From a virus, in the IMG/VR virus record IMGVR_UViG_3300000313_000007, positions 1-40,852 of that record: a DNA stretch of 40,852 nt; one strand, given 5' to 3'. How positions within the stretch are numbered: position 1 is the stretch's first letter; each line of letters opens with the position of its first letter. Made by a program: the position numbers and the translations under genes. Shown here one piece after another: positions 1,973-40,852 of the stretch. The notes under the pieces were generated by a model, which ran no database searches, was not told where the DNA came from, and worked only from the letters and a program-made list of their open reading frames with translations.

Positions 1973-2244
1973 GACTTCATAAATGATGTAATAATCAAAC
2001 TTTTGCTGCTCTCATCTAAATTGGTACAATTTTTGACCATTTCTTATAAATGTATTTTTCCAACGAGGTAATCCATAAAAAATAGACAAAAACTACAGAA
2101 AAAGCCCAGTGCCATCGAAAAAGACTGCAAAACTTCGGTTTCATTGAGTTGTCTAAAAAGACATTCTGAATGAATCCTATATTAAAAAATATTATAACCC
2201 GTTATTTTATAAAAACAGGTTTTTATAAAATTTCCCTAAAATAT
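1973..2244. other. AT-rich intergenic stretch
   Basis: Between the FRG gene and the dam-associated repeat. It holds the FRG promoter region at its left edge. No convincing ORF, RNA or repeat was seen in the remainder. Confidence 0.4.
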
Positions 2245-2307
2245 AAAAAAATGCCGTCGACTACACAATAATGCATAGCCAGCGGCAAGACGATACCAGA
2301 CATATCT
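2245..2307 (-). ncRNA. Predicted ~63-nt small RNA divergent from the dam leader (copy A)
   Basis: Read on the minus strand: TTGACA (2342-2337), a 17-nt spacer, TATTCT (2319-2314), a start near 2307, then a hairpin (2286-2253) with arms GCCGCTGGCTA and TAGTCGACGGC, followed by seven Ts (2251-2245). That is a complete promoter-terminator unit of about 63 nt. The second copy at 39731-39796 keeps the promoter with the same 17-nt spacer, the hairpin loop (GCATTA.TGT) and the T tract, while the stem sequence differs but still pairs. One stem mismatch is present. Function unknown; it could regulate dam or the neighbouring cargo gene. Confidence 0.45.
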
Positions 2308-2357
2308 TACTAAAGAATATTCCTATAGTATCATTTTGTCAAATTATTTTATCAAAA

Positions 2358-2370
2358 CGACTATACAAGT
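2358..2370 (+). promoter_or_regulatory. TGACTATA-type promoter (CGACTATA variant), leaderless
   Basis: CGACTATA at 2358-2365, then CAAGT, then ATG at 2371: the same 13-nt distance from element to ATG as at five other loci. The equivalent site in copy B has the full TGACTATA. No -35 hexamer at normal spacing. Predicted start of transcription falls on the A of ATG. Confidence 0.6.
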
Positions 2371-2379
2371 ATGAAATAA
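2371..2379 (+). CDS. Two-codon leader ORF (Met-Lys-stop), copy A
   Basis: ATG AAA TAA lies exactly where the promoter predicts the mRNA to begin. The same nine bases occupy the same place in copy B (39857-39865). A leaderless minimal ORF could let ribosomes load and stall or release at the 5' end of the dam mRNA. Only its position and conservation support it. Confidence 0.4.
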   Translation: MK

Positions 2380-2550
2380 TCACACAAAACAGGCAGAAAC
2401 CGGCGGGTCACTACCCCGTCGACAAGCGCATACACGCCTACGGATTACTCCGCTTCTACCCGACTTATGCATAAGTATGTATAGAATCGGATTACTCAGT
2501 CTCAAGGTTTAGCCAAAAGTAAAAAAAATTATTTTCTCAAGGAAAAATCC
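2380..2550 (+). promoter_or_regulatory. Structured leader of dam copy A
   Basis: Hairpin CGGCGGG (2401-2407)/CCCGTCG (2415-2421), next a small GCG/CGC hairpin, then CGGA-TTAC-TCCG (near 2439-2450), then the 14-base palindrome ACTTATGCATAAGT. Copy B has CGGCGAG/CTCGCCG in the first stem: one G-C pair becomes A-T and a G-T pair becomes G-C, so two changes preserve pairing while the loop varies. This is direct covariation evidence for an RNA fold. An AAGGA ribosome site precedes the dam ATG. It resembles no riboswitch I recognise. Confidence 0.55.
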
Positions 2551-3345
2551 ATGAAGACACCTATTACGTATTATGGCGGCAAGCAGCAGCTTGCAAAGAA
2601 AATCATTTCTCTTATTCCAGCACATGACATATACTGCGAACCTTTTATCGGAGGCGGTGCTGTTTTCTTTCAGAAGCAGCCGTCAAAATCTGAAATTATC
2701 AACGATATAAACGGCGAACTGATAAACTTCTATGAAGTTATACAGAAAGACTTTTCGCTTCTGGCCCAGCAGGTATCAATCAGCCTGCATAGCAGGGAGT
2801 TATACAGGCAGGCCCGCGTAGTCCATGAAAATCCTGAAATGTTTGACCGTATAAAGAGAGCCTGGGCTATATGGGTACTTGCCAATTCCTCATTCGGTGC
2901 CAATTGGAAGGCCGGCTGGGGATATGACGCTGCAGGCCAGACAACAAAAACAATAACTAATAAGCGCAATTCCTTTACAGTGGAACTTGCAATACGGCTG
3001 CAGAATGTCCAGATTGAAAGCTATGATGCCCTCAAAATTATCAGTAGTAGAGACCGGCCAGAAACGTTCTTTTATTGTGATCCGCCCTACCCGGATACAG
3101 ACCAGGGCCATTATGACGGGTATTCAGCAGAGGACTTCCGGCACCTGCTTGAAACGCTCGAACATATACAGGGTAAATTCCTGCTTAGCTCTTTTAGACA
3201 TCCGGTGCTTACAGCTTTCACAGTTAAAAACAACTGGTATCAGATAGAACTGAAAATGAATAAGCCTATGTCGGTAAAGTCCGGTATTTCAAAACAGAAA
3301 ATAGAAGTACTGACCGCAAATTATCCTATAAAACTGGATAACTGA
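2551..3345 (+). CDS. dam: Dam-type DNA adenine-N6 methyltransferase, copy A
   Basis: 264 residues, usual length for phage Dam (D12 class) enzymes that transfer a methyl group from SAM to adenine. YYGGKQQLAKKI at 7-18 is the SAM-binding motif, FIGGGAVFF follows near 32, and FYCDPPY near 173-179 is the catalytic DPPY motif. SD AAGGA lies ahead of the ATG. It is preceded by a structured leader and followed by a hairpin, and it converges with the integrase. The recognition site cannot be read from sequence. Copy B at 40037 differs at about ten residues. Methylation could protect phage DNA or time its replication and packaging. Confidence 0.92.
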   Translation: MKTPITYYGGKQQLAKKIISLIPAHDIYCEPFIGGGAVFFQKQPSKSEIINDINGELINFYEVIQKDFSLLAQQVSISLHSRELYRQARVVHENPEMFDRIKRAWAIWVLANSSFGANWKAGWGYDAAGQTTKTITNKRNSFTVELAIRLQNVQIESYDALKIISSRDRPETFFYCDPPYPDTDQGHYDGYSAEDFRHLLETLEHIQGKFLLSSFRHPVLTAFTVKNNWYQIELKMNKPMSVKSGISKQKIEVLTANYPIKLDN

Positions 3346-3354
3346 CAGTATGGA

Positions 3355-3380
3355 CATCGGCGTATTTTCTTACGCTGATG
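3355..3380. terminator. Hairpin between convergent dam and integrase
   Basis: CATCGGCGTA (3355-3364)/TACGCTGATG (3371-3380), ten pairs with one G-T, loop TTTTCT. It lies between two convergent genes, where a shared terminator is expected, but neither strand has a clear T tract. Confidence 0.5.
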
Positions 3381-3384
3381 CCCA

Positions 3385-4545
3385 TTACAGTTGCAGTAAC
3401 TTGATAAGTTTTTCCTGCGCCTCGTACACTTCTGGGAACATGTCAGGCGACCAGTTTGTATAACGCTCCTGCATACTCCCGCTACCGCTTGAATGCCCTA
3501 TAACAGCCGCAACCTTTACAGGAGGCACATTCTCAGATAAAAGAAATGTATTGAAAAAATGTCGCCATGAATGAACACAAAGCAGCCGTTTTTTCTTCTC
3601 TTCTGCCATACCATTCAATGCAAGCACTTCGTTTAAATGCCGTAGCACTGTCATTTCCGTTGTAAAACCGAAAGCAAAATGTTTATCATTCAAATTACAA
3701 AGAGGTTTCAAAAACTCGTACAATGTTCTGGGAATAGGTATTTTCCGCTGTTCCTTCGTTTTTGTTGGACAAATTCGTCCCTGATACATCTGTTCAGTTA
3801 CGTCTATGAAATCTTCATGGAGATTCTTTTTGTTTATTGCAAGTATTTCACTGATTCGCATACCGGTAAGAGCTGCTGTCAAATTTGCAATTCTCGAAAC
3901 ATCGGAACGCCATTTAGCACGGAATATATTTTCGGCTTCTTCCAACGTGAACGCATCCCTTTTCTTGTCATCTCCTTTCATTGGGCGTATTCCGCGGAAT
4001 GGGTCAAACATCATTATATTATCCGCAAGCGCATAATCAGTAATTATACGAAGTACTGCAACTACATTATTTACCGTTTTACGTGACATCGACTTGTCTT
4101 GAATTAAATGAGTTCTGAAATGTTTTATGTCGCTGGGCTTTATATCGTGTAACTTGTAATCTGCAAAATAGGGCATTATATGTTTTTCAAGATGTTGACG
4201 GTACTGTTTTATTGTAGACAGGGAAAGTGCTGGATGTTCGGTTGTACCTTCTTCCATTTTGTCGGAAAACCAAGGTGAACCGTCATCAAACCATTTTGCA
4301 GCATAAACTCCGAACTGCTGACTTGAACCGCCGTAGAGTTGTCCATGCTTCAGCAAGTCGTCACAATATGCCCTTGCTGCCGTTTTTGCTTTGCATCCGG
4401 TTGTTTTTCCGGTTGTAAGAGTCCCGTCAGAACTATATGTCTTAAAATACCATACGGTTCCTTGTTTAAGTTGTCGTTTGTAAAGAAAATAAGCTCCGTG
4501 CATAATTACCACTTTTCTGGCGGTTTGTACACATTTTGTATACAT
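3385..4545 (-). CDS. int: Tyrosine-recombinase phage integrase
   Basis: 386 residues. An N-terminal arm-binding part and a SAM-like core-binding part (about 100-190, STIKQYRQHLEKHIMPYF) lead into the catalytic domain: the first Arg in LTGMRISEIL, HSWRHFF (His-x-x-Arg), the second His in IGHSS, and the nucleophile Tyr in ERYTNW. All active-site residues are present, so the protein should be active. The ATG at 4545 has no good SD; an in-frame ATG at 4503 (MHGAYF) is an alternative start. It converges with dam copy A and marks the left end of the phage. It catalyses integration and excision together with an Xis; the HTH protein at 11803 is the candidate. Confidence 0.93.
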   Translation of the reverse strand: MYTKCVQTARKVVIMHGAYFLYKRQLKQGTVWYFKTYSSDGTLTTGKTTGCKAKTAARAYCDDLLKHGQLYGGSSQQFGVYAAKWFDDGSPWFSDKMEEGTTEHPALSLSTIKQYRQHLEKHIMPYFADYKLHDIKPSDIKHFRTHLIQDKSMSRKTVNNVVAVLRIITDYALADNIMMFDPFRGIRPMKGDDKKRDAFTLEEAENIFRAKWRSDVSRIANLTAALTGMRISEILAINKKNLHEDFIDVTEQMYQGRICPTKTKEQRKIPIPRTLYEFLKPLCNLNDKHFAFGFTTEMTVLRHLNEVLALNGMAEEKKKRLLCVHSWRHFFNTFLLSENVPPVKVAAVIGHSSGSGSMQERYTNWSPDMFPEVYEAQEKLIKLLQL

Positions 4546-5184: not shown

Positions 5185-5416
5185 AGCGGTAAAATCTCGT
5201 CCGATTGATACTTCCGATATTCCGGAACTTAGTGCGGATGAAGCGGAAAAACTTCATTTCAAATACTACAAACCTGTAAAAGAACCTGTCCAACTTCGCA
5301 TTGACGCAGATGTTCTGCATTGGTTTAAATCATCAGGGAAAGGTTACCAGAGCAGAATTAACGCTGCCTTACGGCAGGTAATGATACATGAGCTTTCCGA
5401 AAAAAAAGCGAAGTAA
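5138..5416 (+). CDS. brnA: BrnA-family antitoxin
   Basis: About 92 residues from ATG 5138, which has GAGGAAG upstream; the longer frame from a TTG at 5123 is less likely. Features: N-terminal LSPEQLKELEAVKSRPIDTSDIPEL, then KYYKPVKEPVQLRIDADVL and the ribbon-helix-helix part LHWFKSSGKGYQSRINAALR. BrnA neutralises BrnT and binds DNA. A decayed copy of this gene lies at 6430-6672, so the locus was once duplicated. Confidence 0.88.
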   Translation: MNTTYTLSPEQLKELEAVKSRPIDTSDIPELSADEAEKLHFKYYKPVKEPVQLRIDADVLHWFKSSGKGYQSRINAALRQVMIHELSEKKAK

Positions 5417-10440: not shown

Positions 10441-10794
10441 CTACCCTGCTGTATTTGCCTTATCTTTGTGTGCGTTCTCTGCGGCTGTTGTTATCATCGG
10501 GCGTATGATTGCCTGCGTCTTAGCGTCAAGTTCGTGCCAATCGTCAAGTAAATGCCTGTCGTCGTCGTTTAGGCCGTCTGGATCTTCACCTGTTAATAGC
10601 CATTCAACGGAAACATTAAAATATTTCGCTATTTTAAATGCAATATCTGCGCTAGGTATACTGCCTCTTTTTGACCATGAAGTAAACGGTTGTAACGAGA
10701 TGCCTATCGCATCGGCAACAGCCTTTCTTTTCAAGTTTTTTTCTTTAAGTAGCTTATCTATTCTTTCAACAATTTCTTTCCCAACAATACTCAT
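10441..10794 (-). CDS. XRE-family CI-like repressor, module 1
   Basis: 117 residues. HTH_3 domain at about 5-68: RKAVADAIGISLQPFTSWSK is the helix-turn-helix, and the VSVEWLLTGEDP end of the domain is typical of phage repressors. The C-terminal 50 residues are short and acidic, with no LexA-type Ser/Lys protease. No SD: the ATG lies exactly 6 nt after GATAAT, so the mRNA is predicted to be leaderless like lambda cI from PRM. It faces the operon beginning at 11009 across three operators. A HExxH peptidase is the first gene of that operon, as in ImmR/ImmA pairs, which suggests inactivation by cleavage. Confidence 0.87.
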   Translation of the reverse strand: MSIVGKEIVERIDKLLKEKNLKRKAVADAIGISLQPFTSWSKRGSIPSADIAFKIAKYFNVSVEWLLTGEDPDGLNDDDRHLLDDWHELDAKTQAIIRPMITTAAENAHKDKANTAG

Positions 10795-10800
10795 GTCTTA

Positions 10801-10806
10801 ATTATC
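10801..10806 (-). promoter_or_regulatory. -10 of leaderless repressor promoter, module 1
   Basis: GATAAT on the minus strand, then six bases (TAAGAC), then the repressor ATG. The -35 region is poor and lies within operator O1, as at lambda PRM, where the bound repressor activates. Module 2 has the same hexamer and spacing. Confidence 0.65.
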
Positions 10807-10815
10807 GTCAAATTA

Positions 10816-10901
10816 ATTCACCAAAAGATGATTATTTTCTTGACAAAACAATCTATTGGTTATATAACAATACATGTAATCACCAATTAATGATTACATG
10901 T
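10816..10901. promoter_or_regulatory. Three-operator array, module 1
   Basis: O3 at 10872-10901 is an 11-bp perfect inverted repeat, ACATGTAATCA/TGATTACATGT, around CCAATTAA. O1 at 10816-10834 matches the O3 core at 15 of 19 positions. O2 at 10846-10864 is a weaker, inverted match (12 of 19). Their centres are 10824.5, 10855.5 and 10886.5: two equal steps of 31 bp, three helical turns. O2 covers the spacer of the rightward promoter and O3 its start point. Confidence 0.7.
10840..10868 (+). promoter_or_regulatory. Early promoter, module 1
   Basis: TTGACA (10840-10845), 17-nt spacer, TATAAC (10863-10868). Start predicted near 10875, inside operator O3. It drives the leader RNA and the gene at 11009. 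Confidence 0.75.
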
Positions 10902-10996
10902 AAAAGGTGGACAACTAAGGCGATCGTGCTTCCTTAATTGCCTACGGCGATTATTAGCCGCTTGTGTAAGCACGAAACACAGGCGGCTTTATTTTT
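10875..10996 (+). ncRNA. Kissing-loop leader with intrinsic terminator, module 1
   Basis: Three hairpins. H1: TAAGG (10916-10920)/CCTTA (10932-10936), loop 10921-10931. Hm: TTGCC-TAC-GGCGA (10938-10950). H2: GCCGCTTGTGT (10957-10967)/ACACAGGCGGC (10977-10987) with one G-U, followed by TTTATTTTT, an intrinsic terminator. CGTGCTT in the H1 loop (10925-10931) is exactly complementary to AAGCACG in the H2 loop (10968-10974). The leader ends just before the SD of the metallopeptidase gene. It therefore looks like an attenuator or antitermination element, or a short RNA ending at about 10996. The module 2 leader has the same plan with unrelated sequence. Confidence 0.7.
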
Positions 10997-11008
10997 GGGG
11001 TATGCAGT

Positions 11009-11806
11009 ATGACGAACGAAGACATTAAAAACAAGCTTCTGCAGCTATATGAATGCAAAACAGATTTTACAGTCATACAAACAGGCAAAAAAAGCAGCAA
11101 AGTAAACGGTTTTTACCGCGTCGTCACGCATGAAATATTTCTTCATAATAAAAACTTCAATTCTGATAACCAGCTCATGTATACAGCTGTACATGAACTT
11201 ACACACCATATTCTTGATACTGAAAAAGGTGTAAAAACGGCACGATGTCATTCAGGTGCTTTCTACTCGACATTTTATAACCTTATCGACAAAGCTGTTG
11301 ACCTTCATTTCTATTCCCGCAACAGAAACACAGAAACGGCAGAACTAATAAAAGAGGCCAATGACATTCAGAAGCAGATTACCGACCTGCAAAAAAAACT
11401 CGGTAAAGTGCTCATAAAGATACAAGCAGTATGTGATAAAAATAGCGACCGTTTCGAAGATGTAATTGAGCATGACTGCCAGATATCAAGACAGCAGGCA
11501 CATAAATTTATGCAGATGTCTGCAATAAACCTTTCTGTATCAGAAGAAATCTTAAACGCACTTTCAATTAAATCATCGACAGACGCAATGACAAAACAGG
11601 CTGCTATACAGGCGACAGCCGAAGGAAAAACCGTACAGCAGATAAAGGCAATTGCACAAGCGGCAAAACCGACAGACAACGGCCTTGAGTCACCGGAAAA
11701 GCTGCTTAAAGAAAAACAGCGGCTTGAAAAAACAATCGATCAATTAAACGACAGGCTTATCCAGGTTGAAGAAACTCTTAGAAGTATGGGGGAAGAATCA
11801 GAATGA
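11009..11806 (+). CDS. ImmA-like HExxH metallopeptidase with DUF3102-like C-terminal half
   Basis: 265 residues; SD GGGG eight bases before the ATG. N-terminal zinc-peptidase domain with VHELTHHILD at 61-70 (HExxH = 62-66). Residues 115-140 and 230-262 are coiled coils. The middle reads VLIKIQAVCDKNSDRFEDVI then DCQISRQQAHKFMQMS, similar to DUF3102 phage proteins. ImmA/IrrE-type peptidases cleave XRE repressors in ICEBs1-like elements. First gene after operator array 1, opposite an XRE repressor, so derepression by cleavage is the natural guess. Fusion of the two halves is unusual. The next gene overlaps its stop as ATGA. Confidence 0.78.
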   Translation: MTNEDIKNKLLQLYECKTDFTVIQTGKKSSKVNGFYRVVTHEIFLHNKNFNSDNQLMYTAVHELTHHILDTEKGVKTARCHSGAFYSTFYNLIDKAVDLHFYSRNRNTETAELIKEANDIQKQITDLQKKLGKVLIKIQAVCDKNSDRFEDVIEHDCQISRQQAHKFMQMSAINLSVSEEILNALSIKSSTDAMTKQAAIQATAEGKTVQQIKAIAQAAKPTDNGLESPEKLLKEKQRLEKTIDQLNDRLIQVEETLRSMGEESE

Positions 11807-11973
11807 CTGAATTCATGACGGCAAAACAAGTATCTGAATGGTTGCATATATCTTTAAAAAAAGTACGGCAGCTTACGTATTATAAAAAGATTCCGGCGCA
11901 TCATCTCGGAGCACGTGTTATATACATACCTGATGAGGTTGAAAAAACAATTAGAACGAATGAAAAACTATAG
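11803..11973 (+). CDS. Excisionase-type helix-turn-helix protein
   Basis: 56 residues, start ATG overlapping the previous stop (ATGA). MTAKQVSEWLHISLKKVRQL is a MerR/excisionase-type HTH (HTH_17), followed by the wing YYKKIPAHHLGARVIYIPDE. Proteins of this size and fold act as Xis or as small regulators. No other Xis candidate is seen in the window, so it is the likely excision directionality factor for the integrase at 3385. Translationally coupled to the metallopeptidase. Confidence 0.75.
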   Translation: MTEFMTAKQVSEWLHISLKKVRQLTYYKKIPAHHLGARVIYIPDEVEKTIRTNEKL

Positions 11974-11977
11974 ACAG

Positions 11978-12523
11978 GATAACGGCGTATGCCACAAGCG
12001 CCGCAATATAGTTAACCTTGCCCGTATGGGCTGGCAATAACGCAGGTAACCGGCATACAGGTTACACAATCACCCTGCCGGTAGACGCTGAAAAGCGGGT
12101 CGCAAGACCGGGGATAAGCAGCCGCAGTGATGCGGAAGGCAGCAAATCAAGACCGGTGAATCAGTAACCTTTTATTAATTTTGGATAAAAGTTCTTGCAG
12201 AGAATATTCTGCGTGGTTCCGTGGGTGAGAAGCAAAGCCACCGCCGGTGCGATAAATACTGATTGAGTGTACATACAGAATCAGGGCGGTATAGCCGTAA
12301 GGCAACCTATATAAGTGCTCGCAGGTTCGCGACCTGCCGGAACCAATCTATCATAGCGCGTAACGAGCGAGATTTTCACGGATTGAGCTATACAACCGTG
12401 ACGCCGGCTCCCGGCGTGATTCAGACTAGCCATTGCCGACAGGGGAGTCAATCGAGGCCGCAGCTGTGCGTAAAACAGCGACCGTGTGCCACTCTGTTTC
12501 GGCGAGGGAACACGGCCTTTTTT
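11978..12523 (+). ncRNA. Large structured non-coding RNA, ~546 nt
   Basis: No convincing ORF fills this interval, but pairings are dense. H1 CGGCG/CGCCG (11983-12003) and H2 GTAACC/GGTTAC (12046-12065) have complementary loops, TATGCC (11988-11993) and GGCATA (12052-12057), with GCCC-GTAT-GGGC between them. GNRA tetraloops: CGCT-GAAA-AGCG (12086), GGTC-GCAA-GACC (12098), CCGCA-GTGA-TGCGG (12122), GCC-GTAA-GGC (12294). Long-range helix TGGTTCCG/CGGAACCA (12214-12221 with 12338-12345). Hairpins GCAGGT/ACCTGC (12321-12337), TCACGG/CCGTGA (12376-12401), ACGCCGG/CCGGCGT (12401-12417) and GCTGT/ACAGC (12463-12479). It ends in a terminator with TTTTTT. AACTAT at 11966-11971 predicts a start near 11978. 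Size and style resemble the phage-borne ROOL and GOLLD RNA classes, but I cannot confirm membership. Confidence 0.75.
12455..12523 (+). terminator. Intrinsic terminator of the large RNA
   Basis: CCGTGT (12482-12487)/ACACGG (12510-12515) with inner GCC/GGC, directly before TTTTTT at 12518-12523. An alternative outer stem AGGCCG (12455-12460)/CGGCCT (12513-12518) competes for the same 3' arm, so two forms are possible. Confidence 0.7.
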
Positions 12524-12559
12524 AAGCAACTTAAAACTGCTTAGCAGGAGGCTACAGGA

Positions 12560-12766
12560 ATGCAAGACATAGGACTTTCACAAATTAAAAAAATAAAGCA
12601 GCGAATCGCAAAAAAAATAGTCGACGCCCTGAAAGATGAAGAAATGCTTATTAACCGTATCAGCTTCAACGACACACGTCGTCTAGTAATTGAATATTCA
12701 ATCAGCGACCAACAAGAAATGAATAAATCTCTTGAAGCCCGTTATGATCACGTAGATGTCCTATAA
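12560..12766 (+). CDS. Small early protein, unknown
   Basis: 68 residues, basic N-terminus (QIKKIKQRIAKKIVDALKDE), then a beta-like RLVIEYSISDQQ. SD AGGAGG twelve bases before the ATG. Hairpin CTGC-TTA-GCAG (12537-12547) abuts the SD and may affect access. Follows the large RNA terminator by 36 nt. No family recognised. Confidence 0.65.
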   Translation: MQDIGLSQIKKIKQRIAKKIVDALKDEEMLINRISFNDTRRLVIEYSISDQQEMNKSLEARYDHVDVL

Positions 12767-12807
12767 AGTCAACATATTGTTAGATTATTTATTTTGGGAG
12801 GTATATT

Positions 12808-13008
12808 TTGAATAAGAAAAGTGTCTTATTAAATCTCGTGTCATTACTTGAAGACAATGGATTTACAGTAAATGCAATCAATGAAGAAACGGCGGCAGAT
12901 TTAACAAGTTTGCATCCTGCGGCGCATCAATACATTAACGATATTACGGCAAAAACCGGAGTAATTAATATCAAGTGTACTCCGGTAAATCTTGATTCTA
13001 ATGTTTAG
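12808..13008 (+). CDS. Small early protein, TTG start, unknown
   Basis: 66 residues beginning with TTG, supported by GGGAGG seven bases upstream. Mixed alpha/beta: VLLNLVSLLEDNGFTVNAIN then a C-terminal TGVINIKCTPVNLD. Its last bases overlap the end of the convergent zinc-ribbon gene by 4 nt. No function assigned. Confidence 0.6.
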   Translation: MNKKSVLLNLVSLLEDNGFTVNAINEETAADLTSLHPAAHQYINDITAKTGVINIKCTPVNLDSNV

Positions 13009-13226
13009 ATTTTCACATGGGCAGAAAGTGCAAATATATCGTTATAGATGCAGTTTAAAAGTTCGCTGTTATCCATTCCGATATATGCGTCACAGGAAGA
13101 ACAAACTATTACATTTTGCGTTTCTGCTGATTTCTCAAAATGAATAGTTTTGCGAGAAAATGTAGCATTTCCGCATTTCGGGCATACAAAACGATCATAA
13201 GTTTTGAATACTTCACCTTTTTCCAT
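13005..13226 (-). CDS. Small zinc-ribbon protein in repressor operon 2
   Basis: 73 residues. CPKCGNATF near 18-26 and CSSCDAYIG near 42-50 make a CxxC-CxxC zinc ribbon. SD GGAGG. It lies 32 nt after the module 2 repressor on the same strand, so it is co-transcribed in the lysogen. Could bind nucleic acid or modulate the repressor; unknown. Confidence 0.72.
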   Translation of the reverse strand: MEKGEVFKTYDRFVCPKCGNATFSRKTIHFEKSAETQNVIVCSSCDAYIGMDNSELLNCIYNDIFALSAHVKI

Positions 13227-13258
13227 ACTAACCTCCGTAAATCAAATATCGGAAGAAA

Positions 13259-13528
13259 CTAAAACTTGTTGAGTGTTTCTAGTATGGCAGATTTAAGTTC
13301 CGGCATTCTGTCAGCCGGTTCCTTGCCGGTAACAAGATATTCGACGGTAACGCCGAGTGCAGAAGCTATGAGAACGGCTTCAAGAGCGTCTGGATAGCGC
13401 CCGGCGCTAATCCGGTTCTTGAATGTACCTAAATTGAGGTCACATTTTTTGCAAAGCCACTCCTGAGTAGTGTTTTTTGCTTTTATTTGAGCATTTACGT
13501 TATTCCAGAATAGTTTTGCATCGTACAT
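13259..13528 (-). CDS. XRE-family repressor, module 2
   Basis: 89 residues, essentially one HTH domain: TQEWLCKKCDLNLGTFKNRI is the helix-turn-helix and VTVEYLVTGKEP closes it, the same closing motif as in the module 1 repressor. No protease or long C-terminal domain. No SD; ATG lies exactly 6 nt after GATAAT, predicting a leaderless message. It faces the replication operon across three AAGTAAY-N6-RTTACTT operators. Likely the main lysogeny repressor of the early operon. Its HTH differs from the module 1 repressor, matching the different operators. Confidence 0.85.
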   Translation of the reverse strand: MYDAKLFWNNVNAQIKAKNTTQEWLCKKCDLNLGTFKNRISAGRYPDALEAVLIASALGVTVEYLVTGKEPADRMPELKSAILETLNKF

Positions 13529-13534
13529 AACCCT

Positions 13535-13540
13535 ATTATC
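13535..13540 (-). promoter_or_regulatory. -10 of leaderless repressor promoter, module 2
   Basis: GATAAT (minus), six bases AGGGTT, then the repressor ATG. The O1 centre lies 23.5 bp from the outer end of this hexamer, the same value as in module 1. Confidence 0.65.
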
Positions 13541-13548
13541 GGTTAAAA

Positions 13549-13633
13549 AAGTAATAAAATAATTACTTTTTTGATTGACAAAGTAACTTTACTGTTACTA
13601 TAATGTGACTTGTAAGTAACGCTATAGTTACTT
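13549..13633. promoter_or_regulatory. Three-operator array, module 2
   Basis: O1 AAGTAAT-AAAATA-ATTACTT (13549-13568), O2 AAGTAAC-TTTACT-GTTACTA (13581-13600), O3 AAGTAAC-GCTATA-GTTACTT (13614-13633, arms extend to 9 bp). Centres 32 and 33 bp apart. O1 overlaps the weak -35 of the repressor promoter, O2 fills the spacer of the early promoter and O3 covers its start. Arrangement is lambda-like. Confidence 0.85.
13575..13604 (+). promoter_or_regulatory. Early promoter, module 2
   Basis: TTGACA (13575-13580), 18-nt spacer, TATAAT (13599-13604): a consensus housekeeping promoter. Start near 13611. Drives the leader and the replication operon. Confidence 0.85.
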
Positions 13634-13747
13634 ACATAAACAGAGCAATGATTGTACCTCACACAATGATTGCTTTGGCAATCACCTCCTGAAAAGGAAA
13701 GTGAAAGCCGTCCGGGTTTGTGAGGAAGCCGGGCGGCTTTTATTTTT
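13611..13747 (+). ncRNA. Kissing-loop leader with intrinsic terminator, module 2
   Basis: H1: GCAATGATTGT (13645-13655)/ACAATGATTGC (13663-13673) with one G-G mismatch, loop ACCTCAC. Middle: TCCT-GAAA-AGGA (13687-13698). H2: twelve pairs (13704-13715 with 13729-13740, one G-U), loop 13716-13728, running into TTTTATTTTT. CCTCAC of the H1 loop (13657-13662) is complementary to GTGAGG in the H2 loop (13720-13725). CCTCCT at 13685-13690 could also pair with the SD AGGAG at 13748. Same plan as the module 1 leader; the terminator precedes the whole replication operon, so readthrough must be controlled. Confidence 0.72.
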
Positions 13748-13753
13748 AGGAGA

Positions 13754-13951
13754 ATGAAAATAAATATGACGTTTTACGAATCAAGACAAACCGAAATCGA
13801 CAGAACAGCAGCATCAGTAAGCGAATCATTCCGGGACCTACCGCGGACAGAGGGTGTTGTTATGTGCATTGCGACTACATCGGCTTTCCTACAAGCAGAA
13901 ACAAACAAACTGCTTGATATGTCGGTAGCAGATGCGGAATGCATGTTATGA
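13754..13951 (+). CDS. Small early protein, unknown
   Basis: 65 residues; SD AGGAG just upstream with ATG 13754. Mostly helical and acidic (SESFRDLPRTEGVVMCIATT, then FLQAETNKLLDMSVADAECML). First gene of the replication operon. No family recognised. Confidence 0.6.
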   Translation: MKINMTFYESRQTEIDRTAASVSESFRDLPRTEGVVMCIATTSAFLQAETNKLLDMSVADAECML

Positions 13952-13958
13952 ACTGAGT

Positions 13959-14333
13959 ATGACTGAACGCGTAGAGGTACAAAAAATATATATAAAAAAT
14001 AAAGAGTACTGGCTTGCACAGGATTTTACTTTGATACCTGTAAACCACTGTGTCAGATGTAAAAAGCCCTTTTCAGCGCATACAGAAGAGGCGGTTAATT
14101 ATCAGGGCTTCGGGGTCAGCTTTGCCCGGGGTGCATACTCAGGATTATGTCCTGATTGTATTAAATGGTACAGAAAGCAAAAAGAGCAGATGCCGGAGCC
14201 ACATCATAAAGTAAAATCACGGATTCTTGATTATGGTGATCATATTGTTCTGGCGACAGAAAGTTTCAGCATATGGCCGGATGGAGTACAGATACAAGGT
14301 GAAACAGAATACCGGGTATATAAAAAGGGGTAA
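13959..14333 (+). CDS. Early zinc-binding protein, unknown
   Basis: 124 residues from ATG 13959; an in-frame ATG at 13932 would add nine residues and overlap the previous gene. Both have weak ribosome sites. CVRCKKPFSAH followed about 30 residues later by GLCPDCIKWY gives a CxxC-CxxC zinc site. The C-terminal part is beta-rich. Ends 3 nt before the ATPase gene. Confidence 0.65.
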   Translation: MTERVEVQKIYIKNKEYWLAQDFTLIPVNHCVRCKKPFSAHTEEAVNYQGFGVSFARGAYSGLCPDCIKWYRKQKEQMPEPHHKVKSRILDYGDHIVLATESFSIWPDGVQIQGETEYRVYKKG

Positions 14334-14336
14334 ACG

Positions 14337-14991
14337 ATGGCAGTAATCGTAATGGTATACGGAAAGAGCGGCAGCGGAAAGTCAACATCACTCCGTAATT
14401 TCAAAAAGGGTGAAATCAGCGTAATCAATGTTAGTAAAAAGCCCTTCCCGTTCCATGCTGAATTTACGTCACTTGCAACAGACAGTTATGAACAGATACG
14501 GCAAGCAGGTAAGTACAACAGCATCACCAAGTATCTGTATTGACGATGCTACGTACTTACTCGTTGACGAGTTCATGCGGACCGCAAAAATGACGGGCTA
14601 TCAGAAATTCACCGACATGGCTCTGAACTTTTTCAATCTTGTGCGCTTTTGTAACGATGAGCTCGACAGCAGCAGAATTGTTTATTTTCTCGGTCACTCA
14701 GACACAGACAGCAACGGTGATGAACATTTTAAAACTATCGGGCAGCTGCTTGACGAGAAAGTAACGCTCGAAGGGCTTTTTACGGTTGTACTAAAAACCG
14801 TTGTACAGGATGGACATTATTTCTTCGCGACACAGACGAACGGACAGGACACCGTAAAAAGCCCTATAGATATGTTTCAGAAGCAGCTTATACCGAATGA
14901 CTTGAAAGCGGTCGACGACACTATACGCGGATTCTGGAACATACCAAGAACACACACAGGCACTAATATGCCGAAATTCGGCACTAAATAA
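14337..14991 (+). pseudogene. Sak4-like phage recombination ATPase, frameshifted
   Basis: Frame 1 (14337-14543) begins MAVIVMVYGKSGSGKSTSLR, a Walker A motif, and runs to SYEQIRQAGKYN before a TGA. The +1 frame picks up at about 14500-14530 with SICIDDATYLLVDEF (Walker B), then FLGHSDTDSNGD, TIGQLLDEKVTLEGLFTVVL and TQTNGQDTVKSPIDMFQ, ending at 14991. Together they match the single-frame AAA ATPases of the Sak4/NTP-binding phage family that work with single-strand annealing and DUF669 proteins; DUF669 is the next gene. No slippery heptamer is obvious. Options are an inactivating 1-base insertion, a sequencing error, or recoding. Confidence 0.75.
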
Positions 14992-15008
14992 ACAGGAGAT
15001 AAAACACT

Positions 15009-15710
15009 ATGGGATTTTGGGCAAACTACAAACCGGAAGATTACGACACAGTATTTGACTGCAGTGACGGAGACCATACACTTACAATCGTGAAGGTCGA
15101 ACCGAAGCAGAGCAAGAACAATAACGACATGATCGAAGTATCGTTCAAGGTCGACAACATCGGCGTGTATTATGTCGAGCGGTACACTGACAACGAATAC
15201 TTCAACAAAATAATAACAAGGTTCTTCGACGCGTTCGGTATTCCGCGCGGAAACTTCACGTTTAAGAGCTGGTTCGGTAAACAGGCTCAGGGGCACTTCA
15301 TCCACAAGGAAGAAACATATACCGGTAAAGACGGACAGCAGAAGACAATTAACAAAGCACGTCTGCAGTACCTTGCTGTACCGGACAAAGAATCTAACGG
15401 CTACGAGTCGTATCAAAGTGCGGCAGAGGACGCACCGTCTGAACCAACGGCACAGGAAACAGCCGGCGCTTCTGCAGCGTTCGACAAAAAGACTGCTAAA
15501 CCGTCACCTATGACAAAAGAAACGGCCGATGAACTTAATAAAATGTTCGAAAGCGGACAGTTCACGCAGGAAGAAGCAATCGCCTATTACGCTCTGTACC
15601 ATAACGGGGAAGTTGCCGCGGATGCACTGCTCTGGAAAGTTCGTAAGGAATACACAACACGGCTTAACAAAAATAATGACAAGGCGCAGAACGAGATGCC
15701 TATTTTCTAG
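15009..15710 (+). CDS. DUF669-like phage ssDNA-binding/recombination partner
   Basis: 233 residues; SD AGGAG. The opening MGFWANYKPEDYDTVFDCSD and the folded part to about residue 125 match DUF669 phage proteins encoded beside Sak4-like ATPases. A low-complexity Ala/Ser/Pro linker follows, then a helical part, and the chain ends in NEMPIF, recalling the acidic PF tip of SSB proteins that docks replication partners. Likely binds single-stranded DNA during phage recombination and replication. Function by family and context. Confidence 0.72.
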   Translation: MGFWANYKPEDYDTVFDCSDGDHTLTIVKVEPKQSKNNNDMIEVSFKVDNIGVYYVERYTDNEYFNKIITRFFDAFGIPRGNFTFKSWFGKQAQGHFIHKEETYTGKDGQQKTINKARLQYLAVPDKESNGYESYQSAAEDAPSEPTAQETAGASAAFDKKTAKPSPMTKETADELNKMFESGQFTQEEAIAYYALYHNGEVAADALLWKVRKEYTTRLNKNNDKAQNEMPIF

Positions 15711-15721
15711 GAGCGGTAAAA

Positions 15722-16180
15722 ATGAAATGCGAGGTTACATTAAAATACGTCAACATTACGGACATAATGCGCGGAATACTCGGCTTCAAAATAGCAGACC
15801 AGAGCGACGCCGTAAAAATAAGCGTATCCAATGTAATCCGCAATTGTATAAAACGCTACGGCGGTATGGTACGTATTACAGTCCAGCCGCCGTATAAGAT
15901 GCGCAGTACCGGGCCTTACAGCCAGAACCATCATTTAAACGGACACATTATAGATATCTGCAACGCAACAGGGAACAGCTACGAAGATGTAAAGACGGCA
16001 ATAAAAATGTTTGCTGTCGAAAACATGGGGTATCCGTATGAAATGATCCTGGGGAAAATAATTCCTAAGCACGAAAGGGACTGCAATACCGAAGAATGCT
16101 CAAAACTGATAGAAGCTGCACACATTATAGCTGCAGAGAACGGAATAGCACTGACAGAGGCGTGGAATGCTAACAGGTGA
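15722..16180 (+). CDS. NinB-like recombination protein
   Basis: 152 residues; SD GGAGCG. The segment TGPYSQNHHLNGHIIDICNA followed by GNSYEDVKTAIKMFAV and GYPYEMILGKIIPKHERD matches the conserved core of NinB-type proteins, which bind single-stranded DNA and help recombination in lambdoid phages. A C-terminal helix LIEAAHIIAAENGIALTEAW is also typical. Overlaps the next gene by 14 nt. Confidence 0.75.
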   Translation: MKCEVTLKYVNITDIMRGILGFKIADQSDAVKISVSNVIRNCIKRYGGMVRITVQPPYKMRSTGPYSQNHHLNGHIIDICNATGNSYEDVKTAIKMFAVENMGYPYEMILGKIIPKHERDCNTEECSKLIEAAHIIAAENGIALTEAWNANR

Positions 16181-16457
16181 ACAGAGAATTAAGAAACTGA
16201 ACGAACAGCGATGGTTATGCGCATACTGCGGCCGGCCACTTGACGTTATGACAGCGCAGTCGGCGCACAAAATCGCAGACACGAAGAGTAACCGCAGGAA
16301 GTACGGTAACGACATTGTGGACGCATATGAGAACATTGCAATGACGCACGCAGGAAAATGCAACGATGGAATGAATATCGGCTTCAACCCCGGCAAATGT
16401 ACGCAGCTTATTAACCGGATACGAGAACATGACACACACCGCGGAGTATCAAAATGA
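16167..16457 (+). CDS. Small HNH-like endonuclease (early)
   Basis: 96 residues. CAYCGRPL near 19-26, then SAHKIADTKSN and YENIAMTHAGKCNDG resemble the Cys-pair, His and Asn elements of HNH nucleases; a further NPGKC could complete the metal site. Short and without a full canonical HNH string, so activity is uncertain. Sits among recombination genes, where NinG-like nucleases are common. Confidence 0.6.
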   Translation: MLTGEQRIKKLNEQRWLCAYCGRPLDVMTAQSAHKIADTKSNRRKYGNDIVDAYENIAMTHAGKCNDGMNIGFNPGKCTQLINRIREHDTHRGVSK

Positions 16458-17236
16458 ATGAACAGGCTGAATCTTTTATTATGTACGCATCTTTTTATAC
16501 AGCGATGGAAAGTCTTCATGGCGAACAGTTTGAAAAGGTAATGCGTACAATCAATGATTATGCATTCTACGGAACAATTCCGGTTAATATGGATGTCACA
16601 ACAAAAATGATTTTCACGCTTGTAAAACCGCAGATTGACGCAAACAGCAAACGGAGAAACAACGGCAGCAAAGGCGGAGCACCGGCAGGAAACAGCAATG
16701 CAGGTAAAAAACAACCGGAGCTTGATTTATCCAACACGGAAGCACAATCACAGTTTGAACCAGAAACAACCGACGGTTATACAGAAAACAACCAACGGTT
16801 AAATGAAAAACAACCTAATGTAAATGTTAATGTGAATGGAAATGTGAATGACAATGCGAATACGGATAGCGCGCAGGCGCGCACGGATGCAGAGCATCCT
16901 ACCCCGCCCGGCCCTTCAGCTGAGGCCTCTTCTTCGAAACGGTTTATAAAGCCAACACTTCAGCAGGTAAAAGACTACTGCCTCTCCCGAAATAACTGTG
17001 TTGATCCGCAGGCATGGTTAGACCATTACGAAAGCAACGGCTGGAAGATCGGCGCTCATTCGCCTATGAAGGACTGGCAGGCGGCTGTCAGAACATGGGA
17101 GCACAACAACTACTCACTGCCTAAGAGTTTACCAAAGTTTCAGGGCATGGACGGAGACAGGCAGCAGAACGGTAAGGCGGGCGAAATAATGCAGAACATC
17201 ATGAACAGAAGCGCAGGAGGATTACAGCAATTATGA
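16454..17236 (+). CDS. Phage replisome organiser, DUF6291-like N-terminus
   Basis: 260 residues. N-terminal domain FYTAMESLHGEQFEKVMRTI..YAFYG then TLVKPQIDANSKRRNNGSKG is the DUF6291 signature. A long polar linker with a VNVNVNGNVN run lies at about 115-165. The C-terminal part (TLQQVKDYCLSRNNCVDPQA, WLDHYESNGWKI, DWQAAVRTWEHNNY) matches phage replication-initiation proteins. It probably recruits the helicase loader encoded next (overlap 4 nt). The Asn/Val repeat in the linker is a simple-sequence hot spot. Confidence 0.78.
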   Translation: MNEQAESFIMYASFYTAMESLHGEQFEKVMRTINDYAFYGTIPVNMDVTTKMIFTLVKPQIDANSKRRNNGSKGGAPAGNSNAGKKQPELDLSNTEAQSQFEPETTDGYTENNQRLNEKQPNVNVNVNGNVNDNANTDSAQARTDAEHPTPPGPSAEASSSKRFIKPTLQQVKDYCLSRNNCVDPQAWLDHYESNGWKIGAHSPMKDWQAAVRTWEHNNYSLPKSLPKFQGMDGDRQQNGKAGEIMQNIMNRSAGGLQQL

Positions 17237-17961
17237 TTGACAAGACACCAGTTCATAAACTTTCGGACTCTTTGCCCGACTTCACCGCAATAATAAAAGA
17301 CCTTGAGGATAATCCCGAAAAGGCACGGGATGCAGAACGCAAAGCCGCTGAAGGTATGGCCGCGCTTCACGCAGTCACGGCGGAAGGAACGTACAAAAAA
17401 ATCGTTCCTGATAAATACAAGAACATCGGCAGGAAGCTTAACACAGCAGGAAGTAAAGCACGGCAGCAGTTCTACGCGCAGGCGGTTCATGCATGGGAGC
17501 AAATGAAAGCGGGAAATACAGTCACGCTTATTCTTCTCGGTGATTCAGGAATTGGCAAGAGTTTTTTTTCATGCTGGTTGATACACGAAGCACTGCTGAC
17601 GCCGAAAACAATTACAGGCGATATACCGGCGTATTGGTCCTGTGACTATGTTACCGGTTCTGCACTTTCTGCACGGTACAAGAACGCTGACGGATACGGA
17701 GCACATGAATCACGTGAACACATAGCGCATGAATACACGCTTGCGGATATTCTTGTCGTTGACGAAATCGGACGATATGAAAGCAAGTATGAGCAGCAGG
17801 CCGTATTCGACATTGCAGATCAGCGGCAGAAAAGCATGGTTATCATAAGCCAAAAGAAAGGCGTCGAGTTTGCAAACTACGTCGGAACTGCTGTTATGGA
17901 CAGGCTTAATCCGACTGCGCTGTTTATTGACACAGACGGAATGGAGAGCTGGCGCGTATGA
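17233..17961 (+). CDS. DnaC-like helicase loader ATPase
   Basis: 242 residues. Walker A in LLGDSGIGKSFFSCWL near 102-117, Walker B in ILVVDEIGRYESKYEQQAVF near 175-194, sensor-1-like SMVIISQKK, and MDRLNP near the end: the AAA+ pattern of DnaC/DnaI/IstB. Loads the host replicative helicase at the phage origin together with the protein encoded upstream. 4-nt overlaps on both sides. Confidence 0.9.
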   Translation: MIDKTPVHKLSDSLPDFTAIIKDLEDNPEKARDAERKAAEGMAALHAVTAEGTYKKIVPDKYKNIGRKLNTAGSKARQQFYAQAVHAWEQMKAGNTVTLILLGDSGIGKSFFSCWLIHEALLTPKTITGDIPAYWSCDYVTGSALSARYKNADGYGAHESREHIAHEYTLADILVVDEIGRYESKYEQQAVFDIADQRQKSMVIISQKKGVEFANYVGTAVMDRLNPTALFIDTDGMESWRV

Positions 17962-18443
17962 AACTGAATAAAGGCGACGGCCAGCAGCTGTTTTCATTCA
18001 TGCATCCAGCCCCTGATAAAATACCTGTATACATCGACAATCCGGAAACAGACAATGATAAACTGCAGAACCTGCAGTACGATTACTATCACGGGAAGAA
18101 AGAGGCTCTCGGCTTTATGTATCTGACGTTCCGGCGTATCGCGTTGAAAATGATAATTGCCGAACGGAATAAGAAAAAATTCTTCATGGATAAACTAACC
18201 ATGCAGGACAAGGCCGAAGATGCAGCTCTTCTTGTTATAGAACAGTACACCGGTAATGAGCTTGTAATAACAAAATCATTTACTGCATATCTGTATTTAC
18301 AGGTGCGGAAAGTACTGTATTCACAGACAGCCGGCGAGAAGTTTGAACGCTGGTGTATAGAACGCCGGATAAACTTATTTACACTGGATGACGGGGCACG
18401 GGAACGTGTCAAAGCAAAATTTGAAAAGGAGATAAAGAAATGA
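17958..18443 (+). CDS. Unknown early protein with sigma-region-2-like core
   Basis: 161 residues. The central part EALGFMYLTFRRIALKMIIA, KAEDAALLVIEQYTG and KSFTAYLYLQVRKVLYSQ follows the pattern of sigma-70 region 2 (helix, acidic EDA step, then SFxAYLYxxxRxxL). There is no recognisable region 4. A region-2-only sigma-like protein, comparable in principle to T4 gp55, would read promoters consisting of just a -10 element, and the late genes here carry such elements. The resemblance is by eye and short; it may be an ordinary helical phage protein. Overlaps both neighbours by 4 nt. Confidence 0.5.
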   Translation: MKLNKGDGQQLFSFMHPAPDKIPVYIDNPETDNDKLQNLQYDYYHGKKEALGFMYLTFRRIALKMIIAERNKKKFFMDKLTMQDKAEDAALLVIEQYTGNELVITKSFTAYLYLQVRKVLYSQTAGEKFERWCIERRINLFTLDDGARERVKAKFEKEIKK

Positions 18444-18829
18444 ACTTAGAAGAAAAACAGGACGAGGCATATAAAAAAGCAATCCTTGCCTATCTTAACA
18501 ACCGTGTAAAAACTGACGAGTATCTGCTCGCCGCGTGTAAAAAAGAAAATAAAACACTCGACGGGGTTATCGCCTATATAAAACAGGAAGCACAAAAACA
18601 GGCTAAATACGGCGTAGCGTGTATTCCTGACAATGACGTGTATGACTGGGCGGTACATTATATTCTTGAAGACAGCCTGGACTTTGAAAAACAGGAATCC
18701 GCAGAAAAAAAAGAAAACAGTCCTGAACAAGAACAGAAAGCCGGCAAATCTGATAAAACAAACACACCGGCGGAATCTGCAAAAAAACATAAAGACGATA
18801 CAATCTGCGGGCAGCTGGATTTATTTTGA
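18440..18829 (+). CDS. PcfK-like protein
   Basis: 129 residues. AYLNNRVKTDEYLLAACKKE, then TLDGVIAYIKQEAQKQAKYG and NDVYDWAVHYILED form the PcfK-like domain; a charged linker leads to a conserved-looking C-terminal GQLDLF. PcfK and PcfJ are adjacent genes in many conjugative elements and phages. Their function is not established. Followed directly by pcfJ-like. Confidence 0.82.
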   Translation: MNLEEKQDEAYKKAILAYLNNRVKTDEYLLAACKKENKTLDGVIAYIKQEAQKQAKYGVACIPDNDVYDWAVHYILEDSLDFEKQESAEKKENSPEQEQKAGKSDKTNTPAESAKKHKDDTICGQLDLF

Positions 18830-39549: not shown

Positions 39550-39730
39550 ACAAATACCTCCGATAAATTACTTACAATTATCTAATTCTTTGCATTACTA
39601 ATAAACAAATCAAAAAATAATTTACAAATTATTAAATTTGTACAAACATATATTGATTTTTGTATTCTGAATATGTATATAAATATAACACAATATTTTG
39701 CTAAAAACTTTTTTTTTACATATAACAATA
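39550..39730. other. AT-rich intergenic stretch
   Basis: Promoter region of the minus-strand secreted-protein gene and the left margin of the dam repeat. No gene or clear structure seen. Confidence 0.4.
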
Positions 39731-39796
39731 TAAAAAAGTCGCAACCTGTACACTAATGCACAGGCTGCGGCAAAACGATACCAGACATATATCACT
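39731..39796 (-). ncRNA. Predicted ~66-nt small RNA divergent from the dam leader (copy B)
   Basis: Minus strand: TTGACA (39831-39826), 17-nt spacer, TACTAT (39808-39803), start near 39796, hairpin 39771-39738 with conserved loop GCATTAGTGT and a stem different from copy A but still paired, then six Ts. Parallel to the RNA at 2245-2307. Confidence 0.45.
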
Positions 39797-39843
39797 TACT
39801 AAATAGTACTCTCATACTATCTTTTTGTCAAATAATTTTAAAA

Positions 39844-39856
39844 TGACTATATAGGT
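39844..39856 (+). promoter_or_regulatory. TGACTATA promoter, leaderless (dam leader copy B)
   Basis: AAATGACTATA, then TAGGT, then ATG at 39857. TTGTCA at 39825-39830 could also act as a -35. Confidence 0.65.
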
Positions 39857-39865
39857 ATGAAATAA
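39857..39865 (+). CDS. Two-codon leader ORF (Met-Lys-stop), copy B
   Basis: ATG AAA TAA at the predicted transcription start, as in copy A at 2371. Conserved sequence and position are the only evidence. Confidence 0.4.
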   Translation: MK

Positions 39866-40036
39866 TCACACAAAACAGGCAGAAACCGGCGAGTTGGTAC
39901 CTCGCCGACAAGCGTTAGCACGCCTACGGATTACTCCGCTTCTACCCGACTTATGCATAAGTATGTATAGAATCGGATTATTCAGTCTCAAGGTTTAGCC
40001 AAAAGTAAAAAAAATTATTTTATCAAGGAAAAATCT
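39866..40036 (+). promoter_or_regulatory. Structured leader of dam copy B
   Basis: Stem CGGCGAG (39887-39893)/CTCGCCG (39901-39907), perfect seven pairs, covaries with copy A. The CGGA-TTAC-TCCG hairpin and the palindrome ACTTATGCATAAGT are unchanged. AAGGA precedes the dam start. Confidence 0.55.
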
Positions 40037-40831: not shown

Positions 40832-40852
40832 CAGTATGGACATCGGCGTATT

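Follow-up and report, generated by a model that had tools for sequence, protein, structure and literature searches.

Why would one bacteriophage carry two immunity switches that are built alike and yet read different operators? The question is raised by a 40,852-nucleotide stretch of viral DNA (IMG/VR record IMGVR_UViG_3300000313_000007, positions 1 to 40,852; hereafter the window), a tailed-phage prophage whose host genome has a Treponema metagenome-assembled genome as its named relative. Between positions 10441 and 13754 lie two modules, each with a minus-strand CI-like XRE repressor (Rep1 or Rep2), three operators, and a rightward TTGACA promoter, so that each switch is divergent from its own early operon (Table 1). 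An initial annotation of these letters read the pair as one switch that had been duplicated and had diverged. We propose instead that they are probably two autonomous, separately exchangeable CI-type immunity cassettes, in which both the operator code and the RNA-attenuator code are specific to the cassette.

Every distance given in the initial annotation was recomputed, and all of them hold. Operator centres are 31/31 bp apart in module 1 and 32/33 bp apart in module 2, the GATAAT of the repressor promoter lies 23.5 bp from the O1 centre in both modules (counted from the base nearest the ATG) with a gap of 6 nt to the ATG in both, and TTGACA begins 15.5 bp (module 1) and 16.5 bp (module 2) past the O1 centre. 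Relative to a +1 at the ATG, O1, O2, and O3 are centred at -30.5/-61.5/-92.5 in module 1 and -30.5/-62.5/-95.5 in module 2, and by computed position the three operators overlap both promoters in each module. The operators of module 2 follow the pattern AAGTAAY-N6-RTTACTT, and this module stands ahead of the Sak4-like and SSB-like genes. An unbiased array finder, which looks for three palindromic sites with spacing free within 18-45 bp, returned exactly these operator centres as the top array in each module; dinucleotide shuffles matched the array score in 0/1000 cases for module 1 and 0/1000 for module 2, and as a control the finder recovered the annotated lambda OR3/OR2/OR1 at 23/24 bp. Against Pfam PF07022 (Phage_CI_repr, cut-off 22 bits), Rep1 scores 38.3 bits and Rep2 21.8 bits, 0.2 short of the cut-off. 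Rep1 and Rep2 were the sole matches of an XRE profile over the window, with no cro-like first rightward gene; the first genes of both early operons gave no helix-turn-helix (HTH) match in Pfam or PHROGs, and an S24 domain was matched in neither repressor.

The same geometry is found across the genus. In a survey of 111 nonredundant XRE modules, taken from 98 fetched loci and the window, both best spacings fell within 28-34 bp in 50/111 modules versus 148/2220 shuffles (6.7%), a range picked after viewing the data; narrower ranges gave 43/111 versus 77/2220 (29-33 bp) and 31/111 versus 46/2220 (30-33 bp). Forty-nine modules beat all 20 of their own shuffles, and 35 of these lie within 28-34 bp; the best -35 element starts 14.5-17.5 bp past the O1 centre in 24 of the 35, most often at 16.5 bp (12/35). 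Operator sequences vary from module to module: module 2 of the prophage locus L081 has the 32/33 spacing of window module 2, yet its operators read CTTTGCRAAYRCAAAG. Among 12 rows (11 modules) in which 28-33 bp separate the ATG from the O1 centre, a -10 element exactly at -12 to -7 of the ATG averages 4.08 of 6 matches versus 1.5-2.92 at other offsets, and the repressor mRNAs are therefore predicted to be leaderless.

A second group of modules has the ATG 17-22.5 bp from O1 (16 rows), and several of these are followed directly by an open reading frame (ORF) of ~290 aa in place of a phage operon. The same operator ruler with a ~290-aa ORF at once after it and no phage operon was seen at L109, L157, L162, L164, L154, and L166; use of this design may not be confined to prophages. 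Among 16 XRE sites of other spirochaetes, a significant 31/31 array occurs only at L191, which belongs to the same order; with 1/16 significant, the sites are too few for a claim that the geometry extends beyond the genus, and that idea was dropped.

Complementary loops in the leader terminators

Both early operons open with an intrinsic-terminator-like hairpin between the promoter and the first ORF. These leader terminators and their complementary loops lie inside 10441-13754 and are missing from the initial annotation. Leader folding is stronger than that of shuffles (z -3.4 and -8.9), and in each leader the terminator loop is complementary to a stretch upstream, TCGTGCTT/AAGCACGA in module 1 and CCTCACA/TGTGAGG in module 2; in the latter the upstream stretch is itself a hairpin's apical loop. 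Cross-pairing between the two window leaders spans 5 and 4 nt, not beyond chance.

The survey leaders behave likewise where they bear a terminator. The longest complement to a leader's own loop is at least 7 nt in 9/12 terminator-bearing leaders and at least 6 nt in 11/12, whereas loops tested on other leaders (swapped pairs) reach at least 7 nt in 10/132 and at least 6 nt in 25/132. At other terminators of the same loci, a complement of at least 7 nt was found in 15/156 (Fisher p 9e-7 versus 9/12), a contrast weakened by the presence among the 156 controls of the reverse strand of one test leader and of the L083 leader before an HExxH operon. Taken one leader at a time, the score was reached by 0 and 1 of 500 shuffles for the two L099 modules, 1 for L082, 5 for L095, 7 for L104, 11 for L088, and 34 for L085. 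The module 2 leaders of L081 and L103, whose terminator bounds were set by hand and which are excluded from the 9/12 count, have 8-nt complements reached by 26 and 68 per 1000 shuffles.

A leader frame, AGAGC..GCTTTGG, is common to window module 2, L082 module 2, L099 module 2, and L081 module 1, modules whose repressors and operators are unrelated. The exact pattern occurs in 5/196 genus genomes, always at these prophage early leaders, and the reversed pattern in 0. No part of the frame changes faster than the pairing loops, and these covary. Such loops fit a specificity code, and pairing in cis alone could also produce them. A pattern search of viral contigs gave 28 matches, of which only L237, L238, and L245 look like genuine leaders and only L245 passes the loop test. 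Rfam gave no match in the window at the gathering threshold and, with E allowed up to 5, nothing above chance; over ten loci it gave two tRNAs and nothing else.

A different leader form accompanies the relatives of Rep1. At L087, L088, L089, and L090 (and by eye at L093, L094, and L095) the leaders start with a pair of hairpins. The second encloses TTGACA (TGAC loop) in a near-perfect stem of 11-21 bp, and the stem sequence differs in every case. This double hairpin (type I) is possibly a separate RNA element; type I double hairpins with the TTGACA loop were looked for in the window and not found.

Recurrence, exchange, and origin of the two switches

A scan of related Treponema prophages, a check suggested in the initial annotation, found the two-module layout again. 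Of 96 XRE-holding loci, 12 have a pair of XRE genes on one strand with 400-6000 bp between them; from these, the window, L081/L082, L099, L102, L103, and L112 were mapped, with L100, L104, L114, L173, and L177 left out. L081/L082, L099, and L103 have repressor 1, a short operon, a same-strand repressor 2, and then the next early genes. L112 appears chromosomal and the arrays of L102 are not convincing; a scan of genome contigs gave one distant locus. The layout is recurrent and not universal, since L088, L089, and L090, Rep1-like prophage loci, hold a single XRE gene in about 15 kb. The first repressors of L081 and L099 carry an S24 peptidase domain; the second repressor of L099 (91 aa) is without S24. 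In a repressor tree of 105 rows and 82 columns, with many open forks, L099 and L103 have first repressors that pair with each other (94), while their second repressors form a small cluster with those of L091 and L085 (93). This points to inheritance of the two-switch layout, each position retaining its own repressor lineage.

That a switch can be replaced on its own is seen in L081 and L082. Identity between the two loci is 97.2% in the block that runs from the integrase up to the start codon of a 127-aa second repressor, and 96.4% in the block that begins at L081 position 9167; between these blocks lie unrelated stretches of operators, leader, and first gene. In L082 the stretch holds the operators (32/32) of the 127-aa repressor, a leader, and a first gene; in L081 it holds a different repressor (90 aa), operators (32/33), a leader, and a Bro-N/ANT antirepressor gene, and the 127-aa repressor is left without its own operators. 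Read from the alignment, this is a natural and precise replacement of switch 2 that leaves switch 1 as it was. Among the window genes tested there was no Bro-N/ANT match.

The duplication put forward in the initial annotation can now be weighed. The two repressors belong to one fold family and the two modules are closely similar in spacing, as copies of one switch that later diverged within this phage might be. Each repressor, however, is nearer to repressors of other Treponema prophages than to its neighbour, so the modules are not sister copies: Rep1 and Rep2 are 30% identical across 61 aa, Rep2 is 92nd of the 99 Rep1 matches and Rep1 80th of the 96 Rep2 matches among the survey HTH regions, and the nearest listed relatives of each, 41-57% identical, are proteins of other Treponema prophage loci. 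The tree, a quick one with few columns, likewise groups Rep1 with L087 (94 for the group by the Shimodaira-Hasegawa-like approximate likelihood ratio test, SH-aLRT) and places Rep2 elsewhere. The matching geometry is no evidence of duplication, because modules of the genus with unrelated operators have it too, and it was accordingly ruled out as a mark of single origin in this phage. With switch 2 also exchanged as a cassette in a relative, an origin of both modules by duplication appears very unlikely.

Nor do the two switches appear to come from two prophages that meet within the window, an arrangement that we consider highly improbable. A 1.18-kb direct repeat, 90.6% identical and with a methyltransferase gene at each end, and a second integrase just past the window would suit such a junction; against it, both switches sit within one early region, there is a single set of late genes, and L081/L082, L099, and L103 have the same layout.

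Proposed mechanism and competing RNA roles

In the probable case of two autonomous cassettes, a small repressor dimer would bind three sites, each separated from the next by about three helical turns. Occupation of O2, in the -35/-10 spacer, and of O3, at about +12, would turn the early promoter off, while O1, lying on the -35 region of the apparently leaderless repressor promoter, would mediate negative feedback on repressor synthesis. O2 is centred some 61.5-62.5 bp ahead of the start predicted for the repressor, a position from which class I activation may also be possible. Transcripts that escape repression would then meet a second check, an untranslated leader with an intrinsic terminator directly ahead of the first gene, and pairing of the terminator loop with an upstream stretch of the same leader would tune this attenuator. 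Since each module has operators and loop pairs of its own, cross-talk between the switches is not expected. Switch 1 would gate the HExxH/HTH_17 operon and switch 2 the recombination and replication genes. That switch 1 acts before switch 2 is our guess, based on the S24 domain in relatives and on gene content.

Several observations weigh against this proposal. A strong terminator is present in only 12/111 leaders, and the loop pairs of the window are singly modest, being reached by 4/500 (module 1) and 10/500 (module 2) shuffles; those of L094 (112/500), L100 (156/500), and L121 (457/500) are unconvincing. An ordinary hairpin of the mRNA could also explain a terminator-like structure beside a start codon. 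On the protein side, O2 of module 1 is a poor operator match (AAAACAATCTATTGGTTATATA), which accounts for the lower array score of this module (11.39 versus 12.90 in module 2), and several modules, such as L099 module 1, have no significant palindromic array. Finally, since the survey repressors were found through their similarity to Rep1 and Rep2, the geometry may reflect descent as much as constraint.

Other roles for the leader RNAs must be considered alongside attenuation in cis. The terminated leader might be a small, stable RNA acting in trans on newly transcribed leaders with the same specificity, as in P4 or N15, so that each switch would confer both protein and RNA immunity. The loop pairs, hypervariable inside a conserved frame (AGAGC..GCUUUGG) and covarying, look as a specificity code would; the pages on P4 in PMC4825925 describe a leader-derived RNA that pairs with two complementary leader stretches, and a title in the reference list of PMC4488713 places the N15 anti-immunity system under a small processed RNA. 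Folding in cis explains the covariation equally well, the leaders have no Rfam match, and because the loop partner lies in the same RNA we favour pairing in cis over pairing in trans, leaving RNA immunity a tentative possibility.

The leaders might also be put-like elements, which allow RNA polymerase to pass terminators located further downstream. The HK022 put RNAs, as summarized in PMC9378689, are ~70 nt with two stem-loops downstream of early promoters, and terminators precede most lambdoid early genes (PMC9378689); stem-loops are present in the window leaders. Here, however, a T run follows the second stem-loop itself, and the loops vary freely and complement each other, for which the portion of PMC9378689 on put has no counterpart; a put-like role thus seems unlikely. 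A broader scheme would combine two exchangeable immunity sockets with two-layer locks, consisting of private operators and a trans-acting, private kissing-loop leader RNA. Superinfection immunity and induction would then be set by four recognition pairs per phage, and switch 1, SOS-cleavable in relatives, would open switch 2 through a product of its operon. We regard this scheme as doubtful.

Phage setting and comparison with known systems

Besides the switches, the window encodes an integrase, a terminase large subunit, a portal, a major head protein, a tape measure, a Sak4-like annealing protein, and an SSB-like protein (Table 1). The direct repeat noted above spans 2193-3366 and 39684-40852 with a 264-aa DNA methyltransferase gene per copy, and the region of the second integrase gene, just outside the window (L219), is 70% DNA-identical to 3251-4452; together they may mark a reused integration site or a tandem remnant. 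A 571-aa FRG-domain protein occupies the left edge (216-1931).

Table 1. Coordinates of the two switches, their leaders, and the associated genes of the window
Feature	Position	Strand	Remarks
Integrase	3385-4545		
Rep1, 117-aa CI-like XRE repressor	10441..10794	-	Pfam PF07022, PHROGs transcriptional repressor
GATAAT, -10 of rep1 promoter	10801..10806	-	-12 to -7 if transcript begins at A of ATG (leaderless)
Module 1 O1	10814..10835		centre 10824.5
Early promoter 1	10840..10868	+	TTGACA-17-TATAAC
Module 1 O2	10845..10866		centre 10855.5, weak
Module 1 O3	10876..10897		centre 10886.5
Leader 1	10919..10953	+	GGCGAT (10919-10924) and GGCGATTA (10946-10953) compete for TAATTGCC (10935-10942)
Leader 1 loop partner TCGTGCTT	10924-10931	+	complementary to terminator loop
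Leader 1 intrinsic terminator	10956..10998	+	loop AAGCACGA 10968-10975
HExxH zincin-like protein, 265 aa	11009..11806	+	first gene of early operon 1; weak fold matches
HTH_17 (excisionase/AlpA-like) protein, 56 aa	11803..11973	+	Pfam PF12728 28.2 bits; PHROG excisionase match weak
Zinc-ribbon-like ORF, 73 aa, downstream of rep2	13005..13226	-	weak Pfam matches
Rep2, 89-aa CI-like XRE repressor	13259..13528	-	PHROGs transcriptional repressor
GATAAT, -10 of rep2 promoter	13535..13540	-	6 nt from ATG
Module 2 O1	13548..13569		centre 13558.5
Early promoter 2	13575..13604	+	TTGACA-18-TATAAT
Module 2 O2	13580..13601		centre 13590.5
Module 2 O3	13613..13634		centre 13623.5
Leader 2 hairpin P1	13642..13684	+	AGAGCAATGA (13642-13651) / TGATTGCTTT (13667-13676)
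Leader 2 P1 apical loop	13657-13663	+	holds CCTCACA
Leader 2 competing partner GGCAATCA	13677-13684	+	
Leader 2 intrinsic terminator	13704..13740	+	loop TGTGAGG 13719-13725, complementary to P1 loop
Early operon 2	13754..18829	+	65-aa and 133-aa ORFs, then annealing and SSB-like genes, more genes after
Sak4-like annealing protein	14428-14991	+	
SSB-like protein	15009-15710	+	
Terminase large subunit	23745-25412		

The HExxH protein of early operon 1 gave no match at E 0.001 in a fold search; the best were minigluzincins (4jiu/4jix, E 0.014-0.047), and IrrE (3dte) came at E 0.3. A role as an ImmA-type antirepressor that inactivates Rep2 was rejected, Peptidase_M78 scoring just 14.9 bits (cut-off 22), and is kept as a lead only. 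Homologues (E 1e-8 or better) occur in 189/200 genus genomes, mostly single-copy at about 35-44% identity, with closer copies of 53-58% also present, and the protein looks like the phage version of an apparent core Treponema protein. Further along the operon, 11975-12560 is a GC-rich non-coding block with no match to tRNA, Rfam, or phage DNA. It has a tRNA-like outline at 12215-12344 (stem GGTTCCG/CGGAACC and a T-arm-like hairpin), a similar fold is present in L081 at 5255-5350, and its words CGGATTGAG..TATA and ATCTATCATAG are found again in L099.

In the open-licence literature we found no account of a phage in which two CI-type switches, each with three operators, lie side by side with like geometry and have separate leaders with paired loops. 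A word find in the main text of a Treponema prophage survey met "repressor" in the reference list only and "immunity" not at all (PMC11144348). Spirochaete phages are hardly studied, and a geometry that is kept while operators, repressors, and RNA loops change amounts to a natural mutagenesis of what a lysogeny switch needs. With two switches side by side, and one of them exchanged between prophages that are otherwise nearly identical, it can be tested directly whether one cassette or both determine immunity specificity, and the same pair can be used to ask whether an RNA layer stands behind the protein layer.

The window resembles lambda OR in having a divergent CI-family repressor, three operators that overlap the repressor and early promoters, and a -10 near enough to the ATG for a leaderless repressor mRNA. 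The lambda PRM transcript is leaderless. The term lambda-like, used in the initial annotation, thus suits the switch logic; it does not extend to the first rightward gene, where no cro-like gene was found, to the repressors, which lack S24, or to the spacing, which at 31-33 bp is about three turns as opposed to 23/24 in lambda. The window has, in addition, two switches, and leader terminators with paired loops. Staphylococcus phi11, with three homologous operators (PMC3991615), shows one 33-bp spacing in the array finder, although its array is not above shuffles, and for Lactococcus TP901-1 32/32 is one of two near-equal finder answers. Both differ from the window in having a single switch, with cro or mor genes present.

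The P4 leader, as presented in PMC4825925, undergoes premature termination while untranslated and contains internal complementary stretches, as do the untranslated, terminator-bearing leaders of the window. In P4, however, the RNA itself is the immunity factor, whereas the window leaders are also under a repressor-operator switch and have no Rfam match. One switch per phage, given as the rule in the initial annotation, has published exceptions in P22 and N15. P22 has two immunity regions, immC and immI (PMC11016777), and so, like the window, two separate repressor-operator loci in one genome; its immI is the Mnt/Arc/Ant control of an antirepressor, whereas the second locus of the window is a CI-type three-operator switch before recombination and replication genes. 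N15 likewise pairs a primary CI/Cro-like immunity with operators (immB) with a secondary locus, immA (PMC4488713), whose antirepressor is, by a title in the reference list of that article, under a small processed RNA. The secondary locus of N15 is thus an antirepressor operon, while the two loci of the window are protein switches of the same kind, adjacent and in the same orientation.

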